From contig NZ_JQNR01000005.1 of NCBI RefSeq assembly GCF_000745345.1, positions 2,170,001-2,234,000 on the forward strand: a stretch of 64,000 bases of DNA, given 5' to 3'. The position numbers and the translations under genes were made by a program. Below are positions 730 through 12,973 of this stretch, in pieces. The DNA is from Actinacidiphila yeochonensis CN732 (GTDB lineage Bacteria; Actinomycetota; Actinomycetes; Streptomycetales; Streptomycetaceae). How positions within the stretch are numbered: position 1 is the first letter of the stretch; every line of letters begins with the position of its first letter. The notes under the pieces are model-generated. The model saw only the letters and a program-made list of their open reading frames with translations, made no database searches and was not told the DNA's origin.

Positions 730-870
730 TCACTCGTGTGCGTCCAGTGAAGGAATTCGACGTTCCGATTACGACAACCGCACGCAGATGAACGGAAGTT
801 GCCTCTACGGGTGCTGTCGTTCACACAAGCGTGCGGGACCGGCCACCGGTTGACGTGAGCGTGTCGTGCC

Positions 871-1890
871 GTGACGACACCGACTCCGGCGGGGTCGGCC
901 GAGGCGGCGCGGGCCGCCGACCGGCCCCGCCGCCTGCACTCCGACTCCGGCCTGCCCGACCGGCTCTTCCGCGGCACGGCCCGTGCCGGCGGCGGCCTCG
1001 TCCTCGCGGTGATGCTGCTCGTCGGCGGCTTCCTGCTCTACCAGGCGTGGCAGGCCCTGCGCCGGGCCGGCTTCTCCTTCCTCACCACCGCCCAATGGGA
1101 CCCGGACGCCGGCCACTTCGGCATCGCCGCCGTCCTCACCGGCACCATCCTGATCGCCCTCGTCGCCGTGGTCTTCGCGGTGCCGCTGGCGACCGGAACC
1201 GCGCTGTACATCTCCGAGTACGCGCCGCAGCGGCTGCGCCGCACCCTGGTCAGCGTGATCGACCTGATGGCCGCGGTGCCGTCGGTGGTCTACGGCCTGT
1301 GGGGGCTCTTCTTCCTCCAGGGCAAGGTGATCGGGCTGGCCCGCTGGCTGTCGACGTACTTCGGCTGGTTCCCGCCGTTCAAGGTCGACGGCGCCGACCC
1401 GCACGACCCGCTCGCCACCGCGACGGTCTACACCGCGTCCACGTTCGTGGCGGGCATGGTGGTGGCGATGATGGTCACCCCGATCATCTGCTCCATCATG
1501 CGGGAGGTCTTCTCGCAGGCCCCGGTCGGCGAGCGGGAGGGCGCGTTCGCCCTCGGCGCCACCCGGTGGGGGATGGTCCGGGCCGTGGTGCTGCCCTTCG
1601 GCGCCGGCGGCATGATCGGCGGCACCATGCTCGGCCTCGGCCGGGCGCTGGGCGAGACCATCGGCGTCTACCTGGTGATCTCCCCGGTCTTCGCCGTCCA
1701 GTGGCACGTCCTGCAGAGCGGCACCAGTTCGGTGTCCTCCCTCATCGCCCTGCGCTACGGCGAGGCCAGTTCGTTCGGCATGTCCGCGCTCATGGCGGCG
1801 GGCCTCGCCCTGTTCCTGATGACGCTGGTGGTCAACTTCGCCGCGTCCTCGATCGTCGCCCGCAGCCGCTCCGGCGCCACCGCCGAGTAG
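871..1890 (+). CDS. pstC: PstC-type ABC phosphate permease subunit
   Basis: This encodes 339 residues from GTG 871. After a hydrophilic N terminus there is one membrane segment (about residues 45-70), then the MetI-like permease domain with about five more helices. The permease-ATPase coupling loop is visible as EREGAFALGATRWGMVRAVV (about residues 222-241). The block MAAVPSVVYGLWGLFFLQG is typical of PstC. The PstCA heterodimer forms the membrane channel of high-affinity phosphate importers. It starts the plus-strand set that continues with pstA 47 bp downstream and ends with pstB at 12107. Unlike standard operons, no pstS precedes it. A GTTCAC half-site lies at 819, but without the adjacent direct repeat expected for a PHO box. 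Confidence 0.88.
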   Translation: MTTPTPAGSAEAARAADRPRRLHSDSGLPDRLFRGTARAGGGLVLAVMLLVGGFLLYQAWQALRRAGFSFLTTAQWDPDAGHFGIAAVLTGTILIALVAVVFAVPLATGTALYISEYAPQRLRRTLVSVIDLMAAVPSVVYGLWGLFFLQGKVIGLARWLSTYFGWFPPFKVDGADPHDPLATATVYTASTFVAGMVVAMMVTPIICSIMREVFSQAPVGEREGAFALGATRWGMVRAVVLPFGAGGMIGGTMLGLGRALGETIGVYLVISPVFAVQWHVLQSGTSSVSSLIALRYGEASSFGMSALMAAGLALFLMTLVVNFAASSIVARSRSGATAE

Positions 1891-1937: not shown

Positions 1938-3644
1938 ATGACCACCGACGCGACGGGCGCCCCGCCACCCCACCACGCTCGGCCAGACCACACCGCCCCG
2001 CCGGTCCCGCAGGCCCCGGCCGGCCCGGCCGCCTTCGCCGAGGCCGAGACGGTGGTCCTCGACCCCGTGGGCCCCGCCGGTCCCGCAGGCCCTGCCGGTT
2101 TCGCCGTTCCTGCCGGTTTCGCCGGGCCGGGGGGAGCCGGCGGCGCGGACCACGCGGGCAAGCGGTCCGGCTCCCGTCCGACAACGATTCCGGTGCCTCG
2201 GCCCGACGCGGCGGAGCGGCGCCGCACCACCTCCACCGTCCGGCAGACGGACGTGTTCGCGGTGTTCGGCGCCGCGCTCGCCTCGCTCTCCCTGACCTGG
2301 CTGTTCTTCACCCGTCTCGCGCCCTTCAGCGGCACGCTCGGCTTCGTCGTCTTCGCCTACCTGCTCTTCCTCGCGATCTACGCGCTGCTCGTCTCGTACG
2401 ACGAGGAGGGGCCGGCGGTCCGCGACCGGCTGGCGTCGGTGGTGGTGCACACGCTGGCGGTGCTGCTGCTGGTGGCGCTGGTCTTCGTGCTCGTCTACAC
2501 GCTCTGGTCCGGCCGCAAGGCCCTGCCGCACCTGAACTTCTTCACCCAGGACATGCAGAAGGCCGGCCCGCTGGACCCGCTGAGCGTCGGCGGCATCCGG
2601 CACGCCGTGCTCGGCACGCTGATCCAGATCTCCATCGCCCTGGTGCTCACCGTGCCGGCCGGCCTGCTCTGCGCGGTCTTCCTCAACGAGGTGCCGGGCC
2701 GCTACGCGCGCTTCGTGCGGACGGTGGTCGAGGCGATGACGGCGCTGCCGTCGGTGGTGGCCGGCCTGTTCATCTACGCCACCGCGATCCTCGTGCTGGG
2801 GATGCCCAAGTCCGGGCTGGCGGCGGCGCTCGCGCTGTCGGTGATGATGCTGCCGATCATCATCCGCGCCTCGGACGTGGTGATCCGGCTGGTGCCCGGC
2901 ACGCTGCGGGAGGCGTCGTACGCGCTGGGCTCTCCGCGCTGGCGGACGGTGTGGCACGTGGTGCTGCCCACCGCCCGGTCCGGGCTGACCACCGCGGTGA
3001 TCCTCGGCACCGCCCGCGGCGTGGGCGAGACCTCCCCGGTGCTGCTGACCGCGGGCTTCACCGCCGTCACCAACACCGACCCGACGCACAACCCGATGGT
3101 CTCGCTGCCGCTGGCCACGTTCGAGTTCGTGCAGTCCCCGCAGCCGGCGATGATCGCCCGCGGCTTCGGTACGGCCTCGGTGCTCGTCGTGCTGGTGCTG
3201 GTGCTCTTCGTGGTGGCCCGGGTGATCGGCGGCCGCGGCCCGGGCGCGCTGACCCGGCGCGGCACCCACCGCCGGGTGGTGGCCTCCCGCCGCGACCAGC
3301 AGCGCTTCGCCGAGCGGGCGGCGCTGCGGTCGGCCCTCGACGGGGGCCGCCCCGACGGCCCGTGGCGGCCGGCTCCAGCCGGTGCCGCCGGTGCCGCCGG
3401 TTCGCCCCCGTGGCCCGCTCCGGCCACCTCCGACCCCACCCGTCCGCTCCCGGCCGACCCCGGCGCCGTACCCGGCACCCGCGCCGAGACCGCGCCCGAC
3501 CCCGTACCCGACCCCGACACCGCCGCAGCGCCCGGCACCCCGGCCGACGACACCGGCCCGGCCCCCGAGAGCAGCCCCCGTACCACCACCAGCCAGGACT
3601 CGGAGCCCGGCGAGGGCCCCGCACAGGGAGTTGACGGAAAGTGA
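1938..3644 (+). CDS. pstA: PstA-type ABC permease subunit with long low-complexity ends
   Basis: This encodes 568 residues, far longer than ordinary PstA (about 300). Residues 1-95 are Pro/Ala/Gly-rich with collagen-like GPAGPAGPAG runs. Residues about 105-430 hold three N-terminal helices and then the MetI-like domain, with the coupling loop LREASYALGSPRWRTVWHVV and the PstA-like GVGETSPVLLTAG block. The last roughly 130 residues are Pro/Ala/Asp-rich and cytoplasmic or disordered. RBS AGGAG precedes the ATG at 1938. The stop overlaps the GTG of the next gene (GTGA), implying translational coupling to the anchored binding protein. The membrane core is clearly a PstC partner; the role of the extensions is unknown. 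Confidence 0.87.
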   Translation: MTTDATGAPPPHHARPDHTAPPVPQAPAGPAAFAEAETVVLDPVGPAGPAGPAGFAVPAGFAGPGGAGGADHAGKRSGSRPTTIPVPRPDAAERRRTTSTVRQTDVFAVFGAALASLSLTWLFFTRLAPFSGTLGFVVFAYLLFLAIYALLVSYDEEGPAVRDRLASVVVHTLAVLLLVALVFVLVYTLWSGRKALPHLNFFTQDMQKAGPLDPLSVGGIRHAVLGTLIQISIALVLTVPAGLLCAVFLNEVPGRYARFVRTVVEAMTALPSVVAGLFIYATAILVLGMPKSGLAAALALSVMMLPIIIRASDVVIRLVPGTLREASYALGSPRWRTVWHVVLPTARSGLTTAVILGTARGVGETSPVLLTAGFTAVTNTDPTHNPMVSLPLATFEFVQSPQPAMIARGFGTASVLVVLVLVLFVVARVIGGRGPGALTRRGTHRRVVASRRDQQRFAERAALRSALDGGRPDGPWRPAPAGAAGAAGSPPWPAPATSDPTRPLPADPGAVPGTRAETAPDPVPDPDTAAAPGTPADDTGPAPESSPRTTTSQDSEPGEGPAQGVDGK

Positions 3645-5374
3645 GAAGGATACGAGCAGCGGCAGCCACGGTCGCGCTGCTGATCAGCTCGCTGCTGATC
3701 GTCGGGCAGGGGCCGGTCGCCAACGCGACCACCTATGCCCGGATCAGCGGCGCGGGCTCCACCTGGAGCCAGAACGCCCTGGACCAGTGGCGCCGCAACG
3801 TGACGCAGTACGGCATGACCGTCGACTACCAGGGGACCGGCTCCTCCGACGGGCGCCAGCAGTTCAAGAACGGCACGGTCGACTTCGCCGTCTCCGAGAT
3901 CCCCTACGGCATGACCGAGTTCGGGGTGCGTGAACCTCCGCCCACCCGCGGCTACGCCTACATGCCGATCGTGGCCGGCGGTACCGCCTTCATGTACAAC
4001 CTCAAGATCGGCGGCAAGCGGGTCACCAACCTGCGGCTCAACGGCGACACGGTCTCCAAGATCTTCACCGGGAAGATCACCAACTGGTCGGACAAGCAGA
4101 TCGCGGCCGACAACCCCGGCCTCACGCTGCCCAACCGCAAGATCATCCCCGTGGTCCGCTCCGACGGCTCCGGCTCCACCGCCCAGTTCACGCTGTGGAT
4201 GTCCAAGCAGCACGGCGACGTCTGGAACGACTACTGCCGGCGCGTCAACAAGCCGGTGCCCTGCGGCCTGACCTCGTACTACCCCGTGGTGCCCGGCTCC
4301 GGGTTCATCTCCCAGTCCGGCTCGCTCGGCGTGTCCGGCTACACCCGGCAGAACTACGCCGAGGGCGCCATCACCTACGTCGAGTACTCGTACGCGCTGA
4401 CCACCGGCTTCCCGGTGGCCAAGATCGAGAACGCGGACGGCTACTACACCGAGCCCACGGCCTCCAACGTCGCGGTGGCGCTGACCAAGGCGACGATCAA
4501 CACCAACAAGAGCTCCTCGCAGTACCTCACGCAGATCCTCGACAACGTCTACACGTACAAGGACCCGCGCACGTACCCGCTGTCGAGCTACAGCTACATG
4601 ATCCTGCCCACCACGCTCGCCGCCCCGCTCAACGCGGACAAGGGCCGCACGCTGGGCGCGTTCGGGTACTACTTCCTGTGCGAGGGGCAGCAACAGGCCG
4701 GGAAGCTGGGCTACTCACCGCTGCCGATCAACCTGGTGCAGGCCGGGTTCGACCAGCTCAAGCGGGTCCCCGGCGTGCAGACGCAGTCGATCAACGTCGC
4801 GGGCTGCGACAACCCCACCTTCTCCTCCGACGGCACCAACACGCTCGCCAAGAAGGCCCCTTACCCGGCGTCGTGTGACAAGGCCGGCACCACGCAGTGC
4901 TCGTCGGGCACCGGCGGCGCGGCCAAGACGTCCACAACCGTCAAGGCCTCGGCAGGGGGCAACCACTCCTCCGGCACCACCTCGACGACCGCCGGCAGCA
5001 CCACCTCGGGCAGCCCGTCCGCCGGTACGGCGTCCGCCGGAGGCACCTCCGGGTCCGGCGGCACCACCGCCACCACGGGCGGCGCCTCGGGCGCCTCCGG
5101 CAGCTCCACCACCTCGGTGGACCCCGACACCGGCCAGGCGATCGGCACCGCCACCGGCGGCGGTGACGGCGGCAGCCAGGACATCGCGGCCTCCACCGTG
5201 TCGGTCGGCTCCGACTCGTTCTGGGGCCTGCGCACCTGGCTGATGGTGCTGTCCTCCCTGGTGCTGCTCGGCGTGGTGCTCGCCCCGCCGACGATCTCCC
5301 GCCGGCTGGCGGCGAGAAGCGCCGCCCGTTCCGCCTCGGCCGTCGACGACCGCAGGGGAGGCCCGCGATGGTGA
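3641..5374 (+). CDS. PstS-family binding protein with C-terminal membrane anchor
   Basis: This encodes 577 residues. A signal peptide (about 1-29, ending VANA) is followed by a PstS phosphate-binding domain. Canonical blocks are visible: ISGAGSTW (35-42), VDYQGTGSSDGRQQF (61-75), DFAVSEIPYGM (81-91) and VVRSDGSGSTAQFTLWM (171-187), the last being the phosphate-coordinating loop. A Ser/Gly/Thr-rich linker of about 100 residues then leads to one transmembrane helix (about 531-549) and a basic cytoplasmic tail. There is no lipobox, so anchoring is by a C-terminal helix rather than the lipid used by standard actinobacterial PstS. It overlaps pstA by 4 nt and the next gene by 7 nt. Ligand specificity could still be phosphate, given the intact loop. 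Confidence 0.87.
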   Translation: MRRIRAAAATVALLISSLLIVGQGPVANATTYARISGAGSTWSQNALDQWRRNVTQYGMTVDYQGTGSSDGRQQFKNGTVDFAVSEIPYGMTEFGVREPPPTRGYAYMPIVAGGTAFMYNLKIGGKRVTNLRLNGDTVSKIFTGKITNWSDKQIAADNPGLTLPNRKIIPVVRSDGSGSTAQFTLWMSKQHGDVWNDYCRRVNKPVPCGLTSYYPVVPGSGFISQSGSLGVSGYTRQNYAEGAITYVEYSYALTTGFPVAKIENADGYYTEPTASNVAVALTKATINTNKSSSQYLTQILDNVYTYKDPRTYPLSSYSYMILPTTLAAPLNADKGRTLGAFGYYFLCEGQQQAGKLGYSPLPINLVQAGFDQLKRVPGVQTQSINVAGCDNPTFSSDGTNTLAKKAPYPASCDKAGTTQCSSGTGGAAKTSTTVKASAGGNHSSGTTSTTAGSTTSGSPSAGTASAGGTSGSGGTTATTGGASGASGSSTTSVDPDTGQAIGTATGGGDGGSQDIAASTVSVGSDSFWGLRTWLMVLSSLVLLGVVLAPPTISRRLAARSAARSASAVDDRRGGPRW

Positions 5375-7860
5375 TCCGCAACCCCGGCCGCGCGGCGGGG
5401 ACGGCCCGCGCCCGCGCCGGCAACCTCGTGGCGGCGCTGCTCGCCGCCCTCGGCCTGGTCCTGCTGCCGCTGCCCGCCGGGGTGAGCAGCGCGCGAGCCG
5501 ACTCGGGGACCACTACGGAGACCGGCTCCGCGGTCACCAAGTCGGGCACCAAGGGCACCTACGACGACTTCTCCGGCCTCAAGGTCACCGTCGAGCAGAC
5601 CGAACACCTGCGCGGCCAGGGCGTCAAGGTCACCTGGACCGGGGGAGCGCCGACCATCCCGGCCGGCACCACACCGCTGCTGGGCAACTTCCTCCAGATC
5701 ATGCAGTGCTGGGGGAACTCGCCGGACGGGCCCGACCCCGACCAGTGCGAGTTCGGGGAGAACCCCGCCTACAGCGTCACCCAGACGTCGACGCGGACGG
5801 TGGGCGGCGGCTTCCCGGACCCGCTGGAGCCCACCGAGCGGACCATCCCCTTCCGCCCGGTGCGGGGCGACACGGTGACCGACCCCACCACGTACTTCAC
5901 CCCCCTCACCACCAACGAGATGGACTACGCGCCCACCGGGGCGGACGGCGCCGGAGCGGACGTCTTCGACGTGGAGTCCGCCGTCGACGCCGACTACATG
6001 GGCTGCGGGAGCGTGGCCAAGTCCGGGGACACCCCCGAGCCGTGCTGGCTGGTTGTGGTGCCGCGCGGCACCCATGAGCCCGACGGGACCGTGCCGAGCC
6101 TGGGCCTGCGCAGCTCGGCGCTGTCGGCGAGCAACTGGGCGCAGCGGATCGTCTTCCGGCTCGGCTTCGACCCGATCGGCTCCTACTGCCCGATCGGGCA
6201 GAAGGAGGTGGAGACCATCGGCTCGGAGATGGCCTCCGAGGCGCTGACCGCGTGGCAGCCCACGCTGTGCACCGAGGACAAGATCACCTTCGGCTACGAG
6301 CAGCAGAGCGAGGACTTCGCCCGTACGCAGGTGACCGCGCCGACCGACGGCTCGCCCATGATGGCGTTCGTGGAGTCCCCGGTCACCCCGGCCGAGGGCG
6401 GGTCACCCATCGTGCACGCGCCCCTGGCGCTCTCCGGCCTGGTGATCGCCTACAACATCGAGACGCCGGACTCGACCCGCCAGATTCCCCGGCTGCGGCT
6501 GAACGCACGGCTGCTGGCCAAGATGCTGACCACCTCCTACCAGTACGACCTGCCGGGTCCGACCAGCCAGTTCGCCCGGGGGGACCTGAACCCGAAGAAC
6601 CCCACGAGCCTCATCACGGACCCGGAGTTCCTCGCCCTGAACCCCGGTTTCACCCACACGGTGCGGCAGTACGAGGACATCGCGGTGCCGCAGACCAGCG
6701 CCGACTACATCGCGACCCTCTGGCGCTGGCTGCGCTCGGACCCGGACGCGCGCAACTTCCTCGCGGGCAAGCCCGACCCCTGGGGCATGACCATCAACCC
6801 GAGCGCGCTCAAGGAGCTGACGCCGGCGACGAACACCACGATCAACTCGTTCCCGCGCACCGATCCCACGAAGTGGGTCCCCGTGGCGGAAGCCCCCAAC
6901 TTCTCCATCGACTCCGTGGGGACGAACCCCTACACGAACGGGCTGCACGACTCCGCGGTGCGGGTGGCCACGCACGCGCAGCCCGGATACACGGGCGTCC
7001 TCGGGCAGACGACCACCGGCTACACCTTCACGACCAACGGGTACAACGGCCCGGGTGACGCCTTCAACCTGGGCGTCACCGACGCGGCGACCGCCGCCCG
7101 CTACCGGCTGGGCACGGCTGAACTGCTCAACTCCGACGGGCAGTTCGTCGCCCCGACGGTCAACTCGCTGACCACCGCGGCGAACGCGATGAAGCAGGGG
7201 AGCACCCCCGGGGTGCTCGACCAGAACCCGGGTCTGAAGACGTCGGGGGCCTACCCGCTCACCACGATCACCTACGGCGCCGCCCCCACCGGCCTCGACG
7301 CGACCACCAGGGCCGACTACGCCAAGCTGATCCGCTACGCGGTCGGCGACGGCCAGCAGACCGGAGTGGGCCCCGGCCTGCTGCCGCCGGGCTACGCACC
7401 GCTCACCACCTCCCTGCGCGAGCAGGCCCTCGCCGCCGCGACCGCGCTGGTCAAGGGGGTGTCGCCCAGCCAGGCCGCGGGCGACTCCGACAGCGGGGGG
7501 TCCGGCGGCCCGGACGCGGCCGGCGGCTTCGACTCGTCCGCCGCCTCGGGCGGCACCGGCGGAGCCGTGGCGCCGAGCGCCTCCGTCCAGCCGACCGCCA
7601 CCGCCACCGCGACCGCATCGCCGACCGCGTCGGCCGCGGCGGGCGGCGGCGGGAGCGGGGGGTCCGGAACCGGCAACGCCGCCTCGTCCCAGGGCACGAC
7701 CTCCGGGGTCCTGCTCGGCGCGGTCCGCTGGGTGCTGCTCACCGTGCTGGCCGTGGGCCTGGCCGGTTCGGTCGGCGGTCCGCTGCTGATCAGGGCCGGG
7801 ATGATCGGCGCGGGCCGGCCCGCCGCCGGGGCGCGGCCATGGGGGCGGAGCACGGGATGA
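5368..7860 (+). CDS. 830-residue anchored surface protein with degenerate PstS-like domain
   Basis: A signal peptide (about 1-44, ARA/D) precedes a large extracellular region, a Ser/Gly/Thr/Ala-rich linker (about 690-775), one membrane helix (about 780-800) and a short basic tail. Residues about 351-390 (PLALSGLVIAYNIE, then LRLNARLLAKMLT) align by eye with PIVAGGTAFMYNLK and LRLNGDTVSKIFTG of the upstream PstS. A second match is NPGFT followed by VPQTSADYIATLWRWL (about 425-455) against NPGLT and RSDGSGSTAQFTLWM. The phosphate loop RSDGSGST is thus replaced by VPQTSADY, so ordinary phosphate binding is unlikely. Cysteine-rich inserts occur near residues 112-125 and 212-225. It starts inside the preceding gene, indicating one transcript. 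Function unknown; the PstS relationship is my own reading. Confidence 0.75.
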   Translation: MVIRNPGRAAGTARARAGNLVAALLAALGLVLLPLPAGVSSARADSGTTTETGSAVTKSGTKGTYDDFSGLKVTVEQTEHLRGQGVKVTWTGGAPTIPAGTTPLLGNFLQIMQCWGNSPDGPDPDQCEFGENPAYSVTQTSTRTVGGGFPDPLEPTERTIPFRPVRGDTVTDPTTYFTPLTTNEMDYAPTGADGAGADVFDVESAVDADYMGCGSVAKSGDTPEPCWLVVVPRGTHEPDGTVPSLGLRSSALSASNWAQRIVFRLGFDPIGSYCPIGQKEVETIGSEMASEALTAWQPTLCTEDKITFGYEQQSEDFARTQVTAPTDGSPMMAFVESPVTPAEGGSPIVHAPLALSGLVIAYNIETPDSTRQIPRLRLNARLLAKMLTTSYQYDLPGPTSQFARGDLNPKNPTSLITDPEFLALNPGFTHTVRQYEDIAVPQTSADYIATLWRWLRSDPDARNFLAGKPDPWGMTINPSALKELTPATNTTINSFPRTDPTKWVPVAEAPNFSIDSVGTNPYTNGLHDSAVRVATHAQPGYTGVLGQTTTGYTFTTNGYNGPGDAFNLGVTDAATAARYRLGTAELLNSDGQFVAPTVNSLTTAANAMKQGSTPGVLDQNPGLKTSGAYPLTTITYGAAPTGLDATTRADYAKLIRYAVGDGQQTGVGPGLLPPGYAPLTTSLREQALAAATALVKGVSPSQAAGDSDSGGSGGPDAAGGFDSSAASGGTGGAVAPSASVQPTATATATASPTASAAAGGGGSGGSGTGNAASSQGTTSGVLLGAVRWVLLTVLAVGLAGSVGGPLLIRAGMIGAGRPAAGARPWGRSTG

Positions 7861-9494: not shown

Positions 9495-10967
9495 ATGACG
9501 AAACGAGTACACGCCGTGACCAACGGCGTTATGGCACTGTTCCTGGCGTCCGGGGGGCTCGTCCTCACCGCGTCCGGCACCGCACACGCGGACATCACCG
9601 GCACGGCGACCCTGACGCCCACCTCCGGCGCCACCACCGACAAGCCCGCCTTCACCGAGCTGACCCTCTCGGCGGGCTGCCCCACCGGGTACCAGACCGG
9701 AGCGCGGGTCGACGTCGTCCTCCCGAGCGGCGCGCTGGGCACGCTCCTCATCACCAACATCGGCGCTCCCTACGGCAGCGGACCGGTCACCATCGACTTC
9801 CCCAGCACGGCGCCGACGGGGAGCGCCTACATACCGGTCTCCACGGTGGTGACGAGCCAGCACCTCGCCGACGGCACGTATCCGCTGTCCGTGGAGTGCG
9901 GGATCACGAGCCCCACGACGGACCAGGCCCTTCGCACGTACACCAACCTGAACCTGGAGGTCGCCGGGGCGTCCTGGACGGTCAAGGAGGTGGCGCCGCC
10001 CACGGAGACGACTCTCGCCCTGACCGAGTCCCCCAAGGGCCACGGCGTCGTCGACCAGGACATCACCCTGACCGCGGCCGTCACGCCGGCCGACGCGGCC
10101 GGCACGGTGACCTTCACCCAGACGGGTACCGCGCTGGTCCTGGGATCGGCGGCGGTCAGCAACGGCAGCGCGTCAGCCACGATGACGCCCGTCGCCAACC
10201 CGACGCTGAGAGGCATCACCGCGGTCTTCGTGCCCGACGACGCGACGAAGTACGCGCAGAGCACCGCGACCGACACCTACCCGATCGTCGCGAGCCCCGC
10301 GATCACCGTGCTCGACGACACGGGCAACAACCTCCAGGACACGCCGACGCTCAAGGGCGGCCAGAAGCTCGCGATCACCGCCGAGGGCTTCCAGCCGAAC
10401 ACCGCCGACGCCACGGCGGGTGAGGACGTCGACATCGCCCTCGACGGTACGGCGGCGACGCCGGCGTCGGCCTCCGCCACGGTCGACGGCACGGTGGACA
10501 ACCTCGCGTACACGGTGCCCTCCGACATCGCCGACGGCACCCACCGGCTGTCCCTCACCGGCAAGACCAGCGGCGTCGAGATCGACTTCCCCTTCATCAC
10601 GGGCAGTTCCACCAGCGCGGACGACGGCGGTACGTCGGGGGACTCCTCCGGCAGCACGGCCGGGGACTCGGGTGACAGCTCGGGTACGACGGCCGGGGAC
10701 TCGGGTGACAGCTCGGGCGCGACGGCCGGGGACTCGGGCGACAGCTCGGGCGCGACGGCCGGGGCCGTGGACGACAGCTCCGCCGGCTCCACCGGCACCG
10801 CCGATTCCGGCTCCGGCAGCTCCGGGGTGCTCGCGGCCACCGGTGCCGCCGGGGTCCTCCCGCTGGGCGGGCTCGGCCTCGTGCTCATCGCGGTCGGCGG
10901 GTACGCCGTCTACCGGGTGCGCCGTGACGGCCGGATGCTGACGTTCGGGTCGACGCCGCGCGACTGA
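9495..10967 (+). CDS. Ig-like cell-wall surface protein with LAATG sorting signal
   Basis: This encodes 490 residues from ATG 9495, with a GGAGGGG RBS. A signal peptide (about 1-33, AHA/D) is followed by three beta-rich segments of about 100 residues. The middle one (about 170-270) resembles Big_3/5-type bacterial Ig repeats (TLTAAVTPADAAGTVTFTQ). A Gly/Ser/Asp linker (about 375-440) carries about three copies of a 12-residue unit, TAGDSGDSSGAT. The C terminus is LAATG (446-450), then a hydrophobic helix (about 454-474) and RVRR. That is a standard sorting signal; LAxTG is the preference reported for class E sortases of Streptomyces. The sortase-like protein encoded next door lacks its catalytic residues, so a housekeeping sortase elsewhere would have to act. 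Ligand unknown. Confidence 0.8.
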   Translation: MTKRVHAVTNGVMALFLASGGLVLTASGTAHADITGTATLTPTSGATTDKPAFTELTLSAGCPTGYQTGARVDVVLPSGALGTLLITNIGAPYGSGPVTIDFPSTAPTGSAYIPVSTVVTSQHLADGTYPLSVECGITSPTTDQALRTYTNLNLEVAGASWTVKEVAPPTETTLALTESPKGHGVVDQDITLTAAVTPADAAGTVTFTQTGTALVLGSAAVSNGSASATMTPVANPTLRGITAVFVPDDATKYAQSTATDTYPIVASPAITVLDDTGNNLQDTPTLKGGQKLAITAEGFQPNTADATAGEDVDIALDGTAATPASASATVDGTVDNLAYTVPSDIADGTHRLSLTGKTSGVEIDFPFITGSSTSADDGGTSGDSSGSTAGDSGDSSGTTAGDSGDSSGATAGDSGDSSGATAGAVDDSSAGSTGTADSGSGSSGVLAATGAAGVLPLGGLGLVLIAVGGYAVYRVRRDGRMLTFGSTPRD

Positions 10968-11130: not shown

Positions 11131-12054
11131 GTGGCCGTCATCTCACCGCCCCAGCCCGACGCCGGCCCGCAGCCGCAGCCGTCGCCGGCCGGGCAGCGGC
11201 CCCGCCGGAGCGGGCCCGACCCGCGGTTCGCGGTCCCCGGCGCCGCCCTGACCGTGCTCGCCGCCCTCCTGCTCTGCTTCGCCGCCAACCTCACCGTGGT
11301 CGGGCACATCGAGCACGCCCGCGCCCAGCAGACCGGGTACGACACGCTGCGCAAGGAACTCGCCCTCGGCACCGCGCCGGTGGGCCCGCTGGACCAGAAC
11401 GGCAAGCGGGTCGCCGACGGGGCTCCGGTGGCGGTGCTGCACATCCCCGGGATCAGCCTGCGCGAGGTCGTCTTCCAGGGCACCACCTCGGGCGACCTGA
11501 CGCGCGGCCCGGGCCACCTGCGCAACACCCCGCTGCCCGGCCAGCCCGGCACCAGCACCCTGCTGGGCCGGCAGTGGGGCTACGGCAGCCCGTTCCTGCA
11601 CATCGCCCGGCTGCGCCCCGGCGACCCGATCACCGTGACCACCGGTCAGGGCGAGCAGCACTACCGGGTTATCGGGGTGCGGCTGCCCGGCGACCCCGCA
11701 CCGGCCCCGCTGGCCGCCGGGCAGGGCCGGCTGACCCTGGTCACCGCGACGGGCGGCCCCTACACCCCGCACGGCGTGGTGCGGGTGGACGCCGAACTGC
11801 TCGGCACCGCGCAGCCCGCGCCGGCCGTCGGCGGCACCCTCTCGGCGGCCGAACTCCCGCTGGCCGGCGACCCGTCGGCGTGGCTGCCGGTGCTGCTGTG
11901 GCTCCAGGCGCTGCTGCTGGCCACCGTCGCCGTCTGCTGGAGCTTCCGCCGCTGGGGGCGCTGGCAGACCTGGACCGCGGGCCTGCCCGTGCTCGTCGCG
12001 CTGGTGCTGGCGCTGTCCGGCTCGGTCACCGAACTCCTGCCCAACCTCCTGTGA
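11131..12054 (+). CDS. sortase-fold membrane protein lacking catalytic His, Cys and Arg
   Basis: This encodes 307 residues from GTG 11131 (RBS GGAAGGGG). An N-terminal helix (about 33-57) precedes a sortase-like beta domain (about 95-225) with VAVLHIPGISLREVVFQG, RNTPLPGQPG and RPGDPITVTT blocks. Two extra helices (about 251-270 and 283-299) follow. In active sortases the histidine lies in a GHR-type motif; here the equivalent is LLGRQWGYGSPF with Arg147. The cysteine normally ends a TLVTC motif; here it is LTLVTA with Ala206 (codon GCG). The usual catalytic Arg position reads Gly near residue 215. The fold is kept but transpeptidation should be impossible. It sits 52 bp before pstB, suggesting a structural or scaffold role in the Pst-like complex. 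Confidence 0.8.
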   Translation: MAVISPPQPDAGPQPQPSPAGQRPRRSGPDPRFAVPGAALTVLAALLLCFAANLTVVGHIEHARAQQTGYDTLRKELALGTAPVGPLDQNGKRVADGAPVAVLHIPGISLREVVFQGTTSGDLTRGPGHLRNTPLPGQPGTSTLLGRQWGYGSPFLHIARLRPGDPITVTTGQGEQHYRVIGVRLPGDPAPAPLAAGQGRLTLVTATGGPYTPHGVVRVDAELLGTAQPAPAVGGTLSAAELPLAGDPSAWLPVLLWLQALLLATVAVCWSFRRWGRWQTWTAGLPVLVALVLALSGSVTELLPNLL

Positions 12055-12106: not shown

Positions 12107-12973
12107 ATGCCGACCACCGACCAGACCATGCAGCTGCCGCCCGTGCCCACCGGGCCGACCCCCTTCGCCGGCACCCCGGGCAAGGCCGCCGAGGCCCGCC
12201 CCGCGACGCTGGACGCCCGCGACGTGTCCGCCTGGTTCGGCGACCACAAGGTCCTCGACCGGGTCTCGCTGACCATGCCCGCACAGCGGGTCACCGCCCT
12301 CATCGGCCCGTCCGGCTGCGGCAAGTCGACGTTCCTGCGCATCCTCAACCGGATGCACGAACTCGTCGGCACCGCCTCACTGGCCGGCCAGGTGCTGCTG
12401 GACGGCGCCGACATCTACGACCGCGGCCGCCGCATCACCCACGCCCGCCGCGAGATCGGGATGGTCTTCCAGAAGCCCAACCCGTTCCCGGCGATGTCGA
12501 TCTACGACAACGTGCTGGCCGGACTGAAGATGAACGGAGTCAAGGCCGCCCGCAACGACCGCGACGACCTGGTGGAGGAGTGCCTGACCAAGGCCGGGCT
12601 GTGGCGCGAGGTCGCCGACCGGCTGCGGCAGCCCGGCGGCGCGCTCTCCGGCGGCCAGCAGCAGCGGCTGTGCATCGCCCGCTCGCTGGCCGTACGGCCC
12701 CGGGTGCTGCTCATGGACGAGCCCTGCTCGGCTCTCGACCCGACCTCGACCCGCCGGATCGAGCAGACCATCGGTGAACTGTCGCACGAGGTCACCATCG
12801 TCATCGTCACCCACAACATGCAGCAGGCCGCCCGCGTCTCGCACCAGTGCGCGTTCTTCCTCGCCGAGCACGGCACGCCCGGCGCCATCGTCGAACACGG
12901 CCCCACCGAAGCGATGTTCGGCAGCCCCCAGGACACCCGTACCGCCGACTACGTGGGCGGCCGCTTCGGCTGA
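12107..12973 (+). CDS. pstB: PstB-type phosphate ABC transporter ATPase
   Basis: This encodes 288 residues from ATG 12107, with RBS GGAGG. After about 35 extra N-terminal residues the protein has a canonical ABC ATPase. It shows Walker A GPSGCGKST, the PstB hallmark MVFQKPNPFP, signature LSGGQQQRL, Walker B VLLMDEP followed by CSALDP, and the switch histidine in VTHNMQQA. It powers the PstC/PstA channel. Its distance from pstCA (over 8 kb, separated by five surface-protein genes) is unusual, since pstB normally follows pstA directly. Its presence at the end of the same-strand set is the main reason to treat the whole run as one system. A strong bidirectional hairpin follows. Confidence 0.9.
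   Translation: MPTTDQTMQLPPVPTGPTPFAGTPGKAAEARPATLDARDVSAWFGDHKVLDRVSLTMPAQRVTALIGPSGCGKSTFLRILNRMHELVGTASLAGQVLLDGADIYDRGRRITHARREIGMVFQKPNPFPAMSIYDNVLAGLKMNGVKAARNDRDDLVEECLTKAGLWREVADRLRQPGGALSGGQQQRLCIARSLAVRPRVLLMDEPCSALDPTSTRRIEQTIGELSHEVTIVIVTHNMQQAARVSHQCAFFLAEHGTPGAIVEHGPTEAMFGSPQDTRTADYVGGRFG

Follow-up and report, generated by a model that had tools for sequence, protein, structure and literature searches.

The window (the whole 64,000-nucleotide stretch of DNA that was analysed) carries a Pst-type operon on its forward strand. Within this operon lies an open reading frame for a protein that resembles sortases, the enzymes that attach proteins to the cell wall, but has replaced catalytic residues; it is hereafter called the pseudo-sortase. 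The genes and the two altered codons, in window coordinates, are as follows:

871..1890, + strand, pstC permease
1938..3644, + strand, pstA permease
3641..5374, + strand, PstS-type binding protein with a C-terminal TM helix as its tether
5368..7860, + strand, 830-aa PstS-fold protein with a signal peptide, a low-complexity linker and a C-terminal TM helix
8108..9205, + strand, secreted 365-aa protein, a recurrent neighbour, at most weakly PstS-like (TIGR02136, E=0.17)
9495..10967, + strand, secreted Ig-like protein with a C-terminal LAATG sorting signal (Big_3_5, 6e-8, just under the cut-off)
11131..12054, + strand, pseudo-sortase, GTG start, 307 aa
11569..11571, + strand, codon CGG of Arg147 (catalytic His column)
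11746..11748, + strand, codon GCG of Ala206 (catalytic Cys column)
12107..12973, + strand, pstB, ATPase of the accessory Pst-type importer (TIGR00972, E=7e-101, 336.7 bits, just under the cut-off of 343.2)

The pseudo-sortase is encoded on the same strand as pstSCAB, and 52 bp separate its stop codon from the pstB start at 12107. Residues 103-206 match the Pfam Sortase family PF04203 (E=6e-14, 52.3 bits against a cut-off of 26.6), and comparison of an AlphaFold2 model (pLDDT 79, pTM 0.72) with solved structures gave Z scores of 19.0 to SrtD (4d70) and 16.0 to SrtE (5go5, 32% identity). With this match and the sortase beta-barrel, the protein belongs to the sortase superfamily by fold. Both hydropathy and the AlphaFold2 model place three hydrophobic helices within residues 31-79, 248-275 and 277-302. 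The predicted layout is an N-terminal TM helix, an extracellular sortase domain at about residues 94-226 and two C-terminal TM helices ending in LLPNLL; with one membrane helix at the N-terminus and two at the C-terminus, the sortase domain should face outside. A first-pass annotation of this DNA had described a recognisable sortase-like beta domain with three predicted membrane helices, encoded next to pstB, and all of this holds.

We then considered the catalytic residues. GRQWGYGSPF of the window protein aligns without gaps to GHRRTYGDPF of active sortases, which places Arg147 in the His column, and LTLVTA aligns to LTLTTC, which places Ala206 in the Cys column; both replacements had been read correctly at first pass. 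The Arg position had been read as Gly. There is indeed no Arg there, but the catalytic Arg column is Val216 in a larger alignment, with Gly215 adjoining, and the Gly may thus have been one residue off. The window protein consequently has neither the catalytic His and Cys of a sortase enzyme nor its third residue, the catalytic Arg or class F Asn.

Residues in these columns were counted in one alignment of 99 distinct family members, part of which come from short loci, and 39 catalytic-type (canonical) sortases. The His column holds R in 93 family members, K in 6 and H in none, compared with H in 39/39 canonical sortases. The Cys column is A in 74, G in 13, S in 10, T in 1 and V in 1, with no C in the family and C in 39/39 canonical sortases. 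The Arg column is mostly hydrophobic or small, with Arg kept in 3/99, while the canonical proteins have R in 23 and N in 15 of 39. The latter residue fits a known change of actinobacterial class F sortases, in which Asn stands in place of the catalytic Arg (PMC6998099). Six more pst-linked members from outside the class are all dead too, giving a total of 105 distinct homologues across the phylum, each with Arg or Lys at the His column and none with Cys at the Cys column. One of these six, the basal member L217, retains the catalytic Arg, with GRR at the His column and Ser at the Cys column. Replacement of both His and Cys in 105/105 distinct family members is therefore far beyond chance. Loss of the triad is family-wide for His and Cys and has exceptions for Arg. 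Orthologues with an intact triad were sought widely, and none was found beside a pst operon. Near-invariant and specific to the family in the 99-member alignment are R131, Q138, R147, Q173, R200 and P213.

Homologues of the pseudo-sortase were found in 23/35 genomes of the genus. At a threshold of 1e-12, matches were present in 127/395 genomes of the family, a count that includes some catalytic sortases at its weak end, and in 69/297 genomes of the class, searched with a single-sequence query, of which roughly 40 clearly belong to the pseudo-sortase family and the rest include catalytic sortases. At 1e-14, 75/396 genomes of the phylum gave matches, few of them belonging to the pseudo-sortase family. 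Absence from about a third of the genus genomes and from most sampled family genomes indicates that the gene is accessory.

In the tree the pseudo-sortases make up one side of a single branch (support 100/99), and with the catalytic columns removed the dead proteins still form one group (98/67; 99% of 200 bootstrap trees). The active proteins closest to them are three-helix class E sortases (L216, L218, L220-L226) that keep His, Cys and Arg; like the pseudo-sortases, they have two helices at the C-terminus and end in LLP (LLPxxx). The tree supports a probable descent of the pseudo-sortase from three-helix class E sortases. The active class E-type proteins come from other classes of the phylum. 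No pst operon was found near them in the fetched neighbourhoods, where L224 gave one weak ATPase match of 24% identity, and no sorting-signal neighbour was detected by simple pattern in the six of these loci checked. One genome (G678) has both forms, the dead copy beside pst genes and the active copy elsewhere. Loss of catalysis and residence in a pst operon coincide in every neighbourhood read, and the two may be causally tied.

Among NCBIfam models the window protein matches the class E model NF033747 best, at 69.4 bits and well below the cut-off of 160 bits, whereas three active three-TM relatives scored 176.7, 163.0 and 159.0 bits on this model, two of them passing. A Tyr in the beta3/beta4 loop of class E sortases reads the Ala at P3 of the substrate (PMC5148588). 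At this position the window protein has L130, and the family has R in 69, L in 17 and Y in 0 of 99 members, as opposed to Y in 28/39 canonical sortases. The beta6/beta7 loop is 19 residues long in the window protein, 28-29 in most class E-like proteins and ∼20-22 in the active three-TM relatives. A short loop as the mark of a lost peptide groove was dropped because the loops of the active three-TM relatives are nearly as short.

Pairwise comparison by the Nei-Gojobori method gave a dN/dS of 0.06-0.48 for the pseudo-sortase over 14 pairs, with 0.03-0.26 for pstB. These values are not near 1, as anticipated at first pass from purifying selection. Furthermore, genomes of 1.0-1.7 Mb retain the pseudo-sortase beside their second pstB. 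Three broken copies were encountered:

L085:9559-10456, frameshifted copy in genome G024
L091:9635-10451, copy with frameshifts in genome G365, whose pstB is broken too
L092:9818-9973, relic in genome G023

These copies could reflect either sequencing errors or decay. Some strains can thus do without the operon, whereas strains that keep it, those with genomes of 1.0-1.7 Mb among them, do so under selection. The sequence evidence supports the view that the pseudo-sortase is a true pseudoenzyme of long standing, maintained by purifying selection.

Neighbouring genes were counted on the same strand and within 10 kb in the 64 loci whose flanks reached 8 kb or more on each side. The most constant partners are pstB (62 loci) and the 830-aa PstS-fold protein (61), followed by pstS (54), pstA (51), the 365-aa protein (51) and a sorting-signal protein in at least 16, a lower bound, as the strict detector missed some signals flagged by another scan. 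Gene order around the pseudo-sortase differs between lineages while the pst association stays, which strengthens the case for a functional link. An ordinary pst operon is also present in 10/10 genomes checked.

The 830-aa protein has a predicted PstS fold (Foldseek 7e-13 to phosphate-binding proteins). By eye it is without the RSDGSG phosphate loop. It also has several invariant cysteines. Having a PstS fold without this loop, it may be a second degenerate component. In the window PstS (3641-5374) the C-terminal membrane helix follows a Ser/Gly/Thr-rich linker, and no lipobox was seen by eye. The column of its phosphate-binding Asp56 reads Glu here and either D or E in relatives, so the idea that the change marks an altered ligand was dropped. 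The LAATG motif of the window Ig-like protein is followed by a hydrophobic tail. A scan of six window proteins revealed neither a WxL nor a WxLIP domain. In related loci, WxL-like and WxLIP-like proteins (PF13731, PF06030) are encoded between the PstS-fold genes and the pseudo-sortase:

L129:5932-7095, WxL-like/WxLIP-like protein
L063:7835-9634, WxL-like/WxLIP-like protein
L080:3629-7218, WxL-like/WxLIP-like protein
L136:11278-12414, WxL-like/WxLIP-like protein

Upstream of pstC the best PHO box score was 10/14, the same as in shuffles, and no site rose above chance, whereas the ordinary pst operon of the same genome has a perfect PHO-type repeat (14/14). The region upstream of pstC (window 794-825) does contain a site, GGAAGTTGCC-N14-C[GA]TTCACA, that is common to the Streptomycetaceae loci L058 and L061. 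The 14-mer GGAAGTTGCCTCTA occurs once in the window versus 0.07 expected. The shared site may act as a promoter or operator of a kind other than the PHO box.

Because pst linkage is seen in 62/64 loci, a non-enzymatic role in the Pst system is the best reading; together with the dead triad and purifying selection it upholds the non-enzymatic role suggested at first pass. We propose that the fixed sortase pseudoenzyme probably serves an accessory PstSCAB-type importer complex as a subunit that is anchored in the membrane, faces outward and has no catalytic role. In this model a three-helix class E sortase would have lost its His and Cys at about the time it entered the pst operon; purifying selection has since kept the dead copy. 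The sortase domain would hold tethered PstS-type proteins, chiefly the 830-aa PstS-fold protein, near the PstC/PstA channel, while the C-terminal helices would pack in the membrane and the conserved pocket Arg/Lys147 would probably give a binding contact and not chemistry. We infer the formation of this complex, the identity of its partners and the role of Arg147; operon membership alone is not proof of a complex. Binding of the pseudo-sortase to PstC/A, the other role suggested at first pass, is possible, and other pocket roles such as ligand sensing or new chemistry would be expected to leave similar traces.

A dead sortase could instead grip LAxTG-type signals and hold or shield the surface protein encoded next to it, or pass that protein on to a catalytically active class E sortase, which agrees with the LAATG and hydrophobic tail of the window neighbour, with the seven catalytic-type sortases in the window's own genome and with the sorting-signal proteins in part of the Streptomycetaceae loci. 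However, sorting signals were detected in 16/64 loci (a lower bound from a strict detector), whole clades (L067-L070, L075-L077) have a pseudo-sortase without a sorting-signal protein, and the P3-reading position of class E (PMC5148588), Tyr in 28/39 canonical sortases, is Tyr in 0/99 family members. Signal gripping, suggested at first pass, therefore lacks support as a general role, and we consider it quite improbable. Decay of the gene to a pseudogene, or its carriage as a functionless passenger of the operon, might be read from the frameshifts or relics in G024, G365 and G023, yet it is contradicted by the dN/dS of 0.06-0.48, the single old origin and the retention in 1.0-1.7 Mb genomes, and we give it almost no credence.

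Two further alternatives invoke the former active site. The positive charge at the former His column is absolutely conserved, R131, R184 and R200 are near-invariant, and the gene sits in a Pst-type operon, all of which would suit a sensor whose Arg/Lys pocket binds an anion or a phosphorylated envelope ligand and modulates signalling or the activity of the importer. We regard such a sensor as unlikely, given that no PHO box was found at the window operon and no signalling gene was recognised nearby. The family-specific set of conserved polar residues might also indicate a new enzyme with different residues in the old pocket, but the Cys column varies among A, G, S, T and V with no alternative invariant nucleophile apparent, and the domain's nearly invariant His, H129, occurs in many active sortases as well (16/39), making a new enzyme very unlikely.

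Returning to the importer subunit, a bolder version can be offered tentatively. Across Actinomycetota there might be a distinct class of Pst-type importer that has the ancient pseudoenzyme family as its dedicated subunit. With the second PstS-fold protein this subunit would form a wall-reaching capture complex, and its former active site, with an invariant Arg/Lys for His, would now be a ligand or partner site controlling uptake. We found no published description of a pseudo-sortase in a pst operon in the open-licence full-text literature, and no family-wide, long-lived, catalytically dead sortase branch in the searchable sortase literature. What is new is a catalytically dead branch of the known sortase superfamily in a new setting. 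If our interpretation is correct, the sortase fold has been reused in a nutrient importer, where it plays a structural or sensing part, and actinobacterial genes next to pstB that are labelled 'sortase' or 'class E sortase' carry the wrong name. The findings also point to a second, poorly described Pst-type system that is retained even by small genomes.

Compared with known systems, the window protein resembles class E sortases (SrtE; S. coelicolor SrtE1, PDB 5cuw, 5go5) in being an actinobacterial, membrane-anchored beta-barrel protein. Unlike them, it is without the His, Cys and Arg, has the class E Tyr replaced and is fixed in a pst operon, and it differs from SrtE1-type enzymes by two extra C-terminal helices with an LLPN ending. 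The operon in turn shares with the PstSCAB phosphate ABC importer the genes pstS, pstC, pstA and pstB, the RSDGSG loop of PstS and the ABC motifs. To these it adds a second PstS-fold protein, a C-terminally tethered PstS, the pseudo-sortase and secreted Ig-like proteins, and the PHO-type repeat of the genome's ordinary pst operon was not detected at it. WxL/DUF916 cell-surface clusters are known from Firmicutes (PMC1534035, PMC10599100). Loci related to the window operon likewise encode small LAxTG proteins together with proteins of the WxL-like, WxLIP-like and Ig-like kinds, a surface assembly of comparable type, but in the pseudo-sortase loci this set is tied to a Pst importer and a pseudo-sortase.
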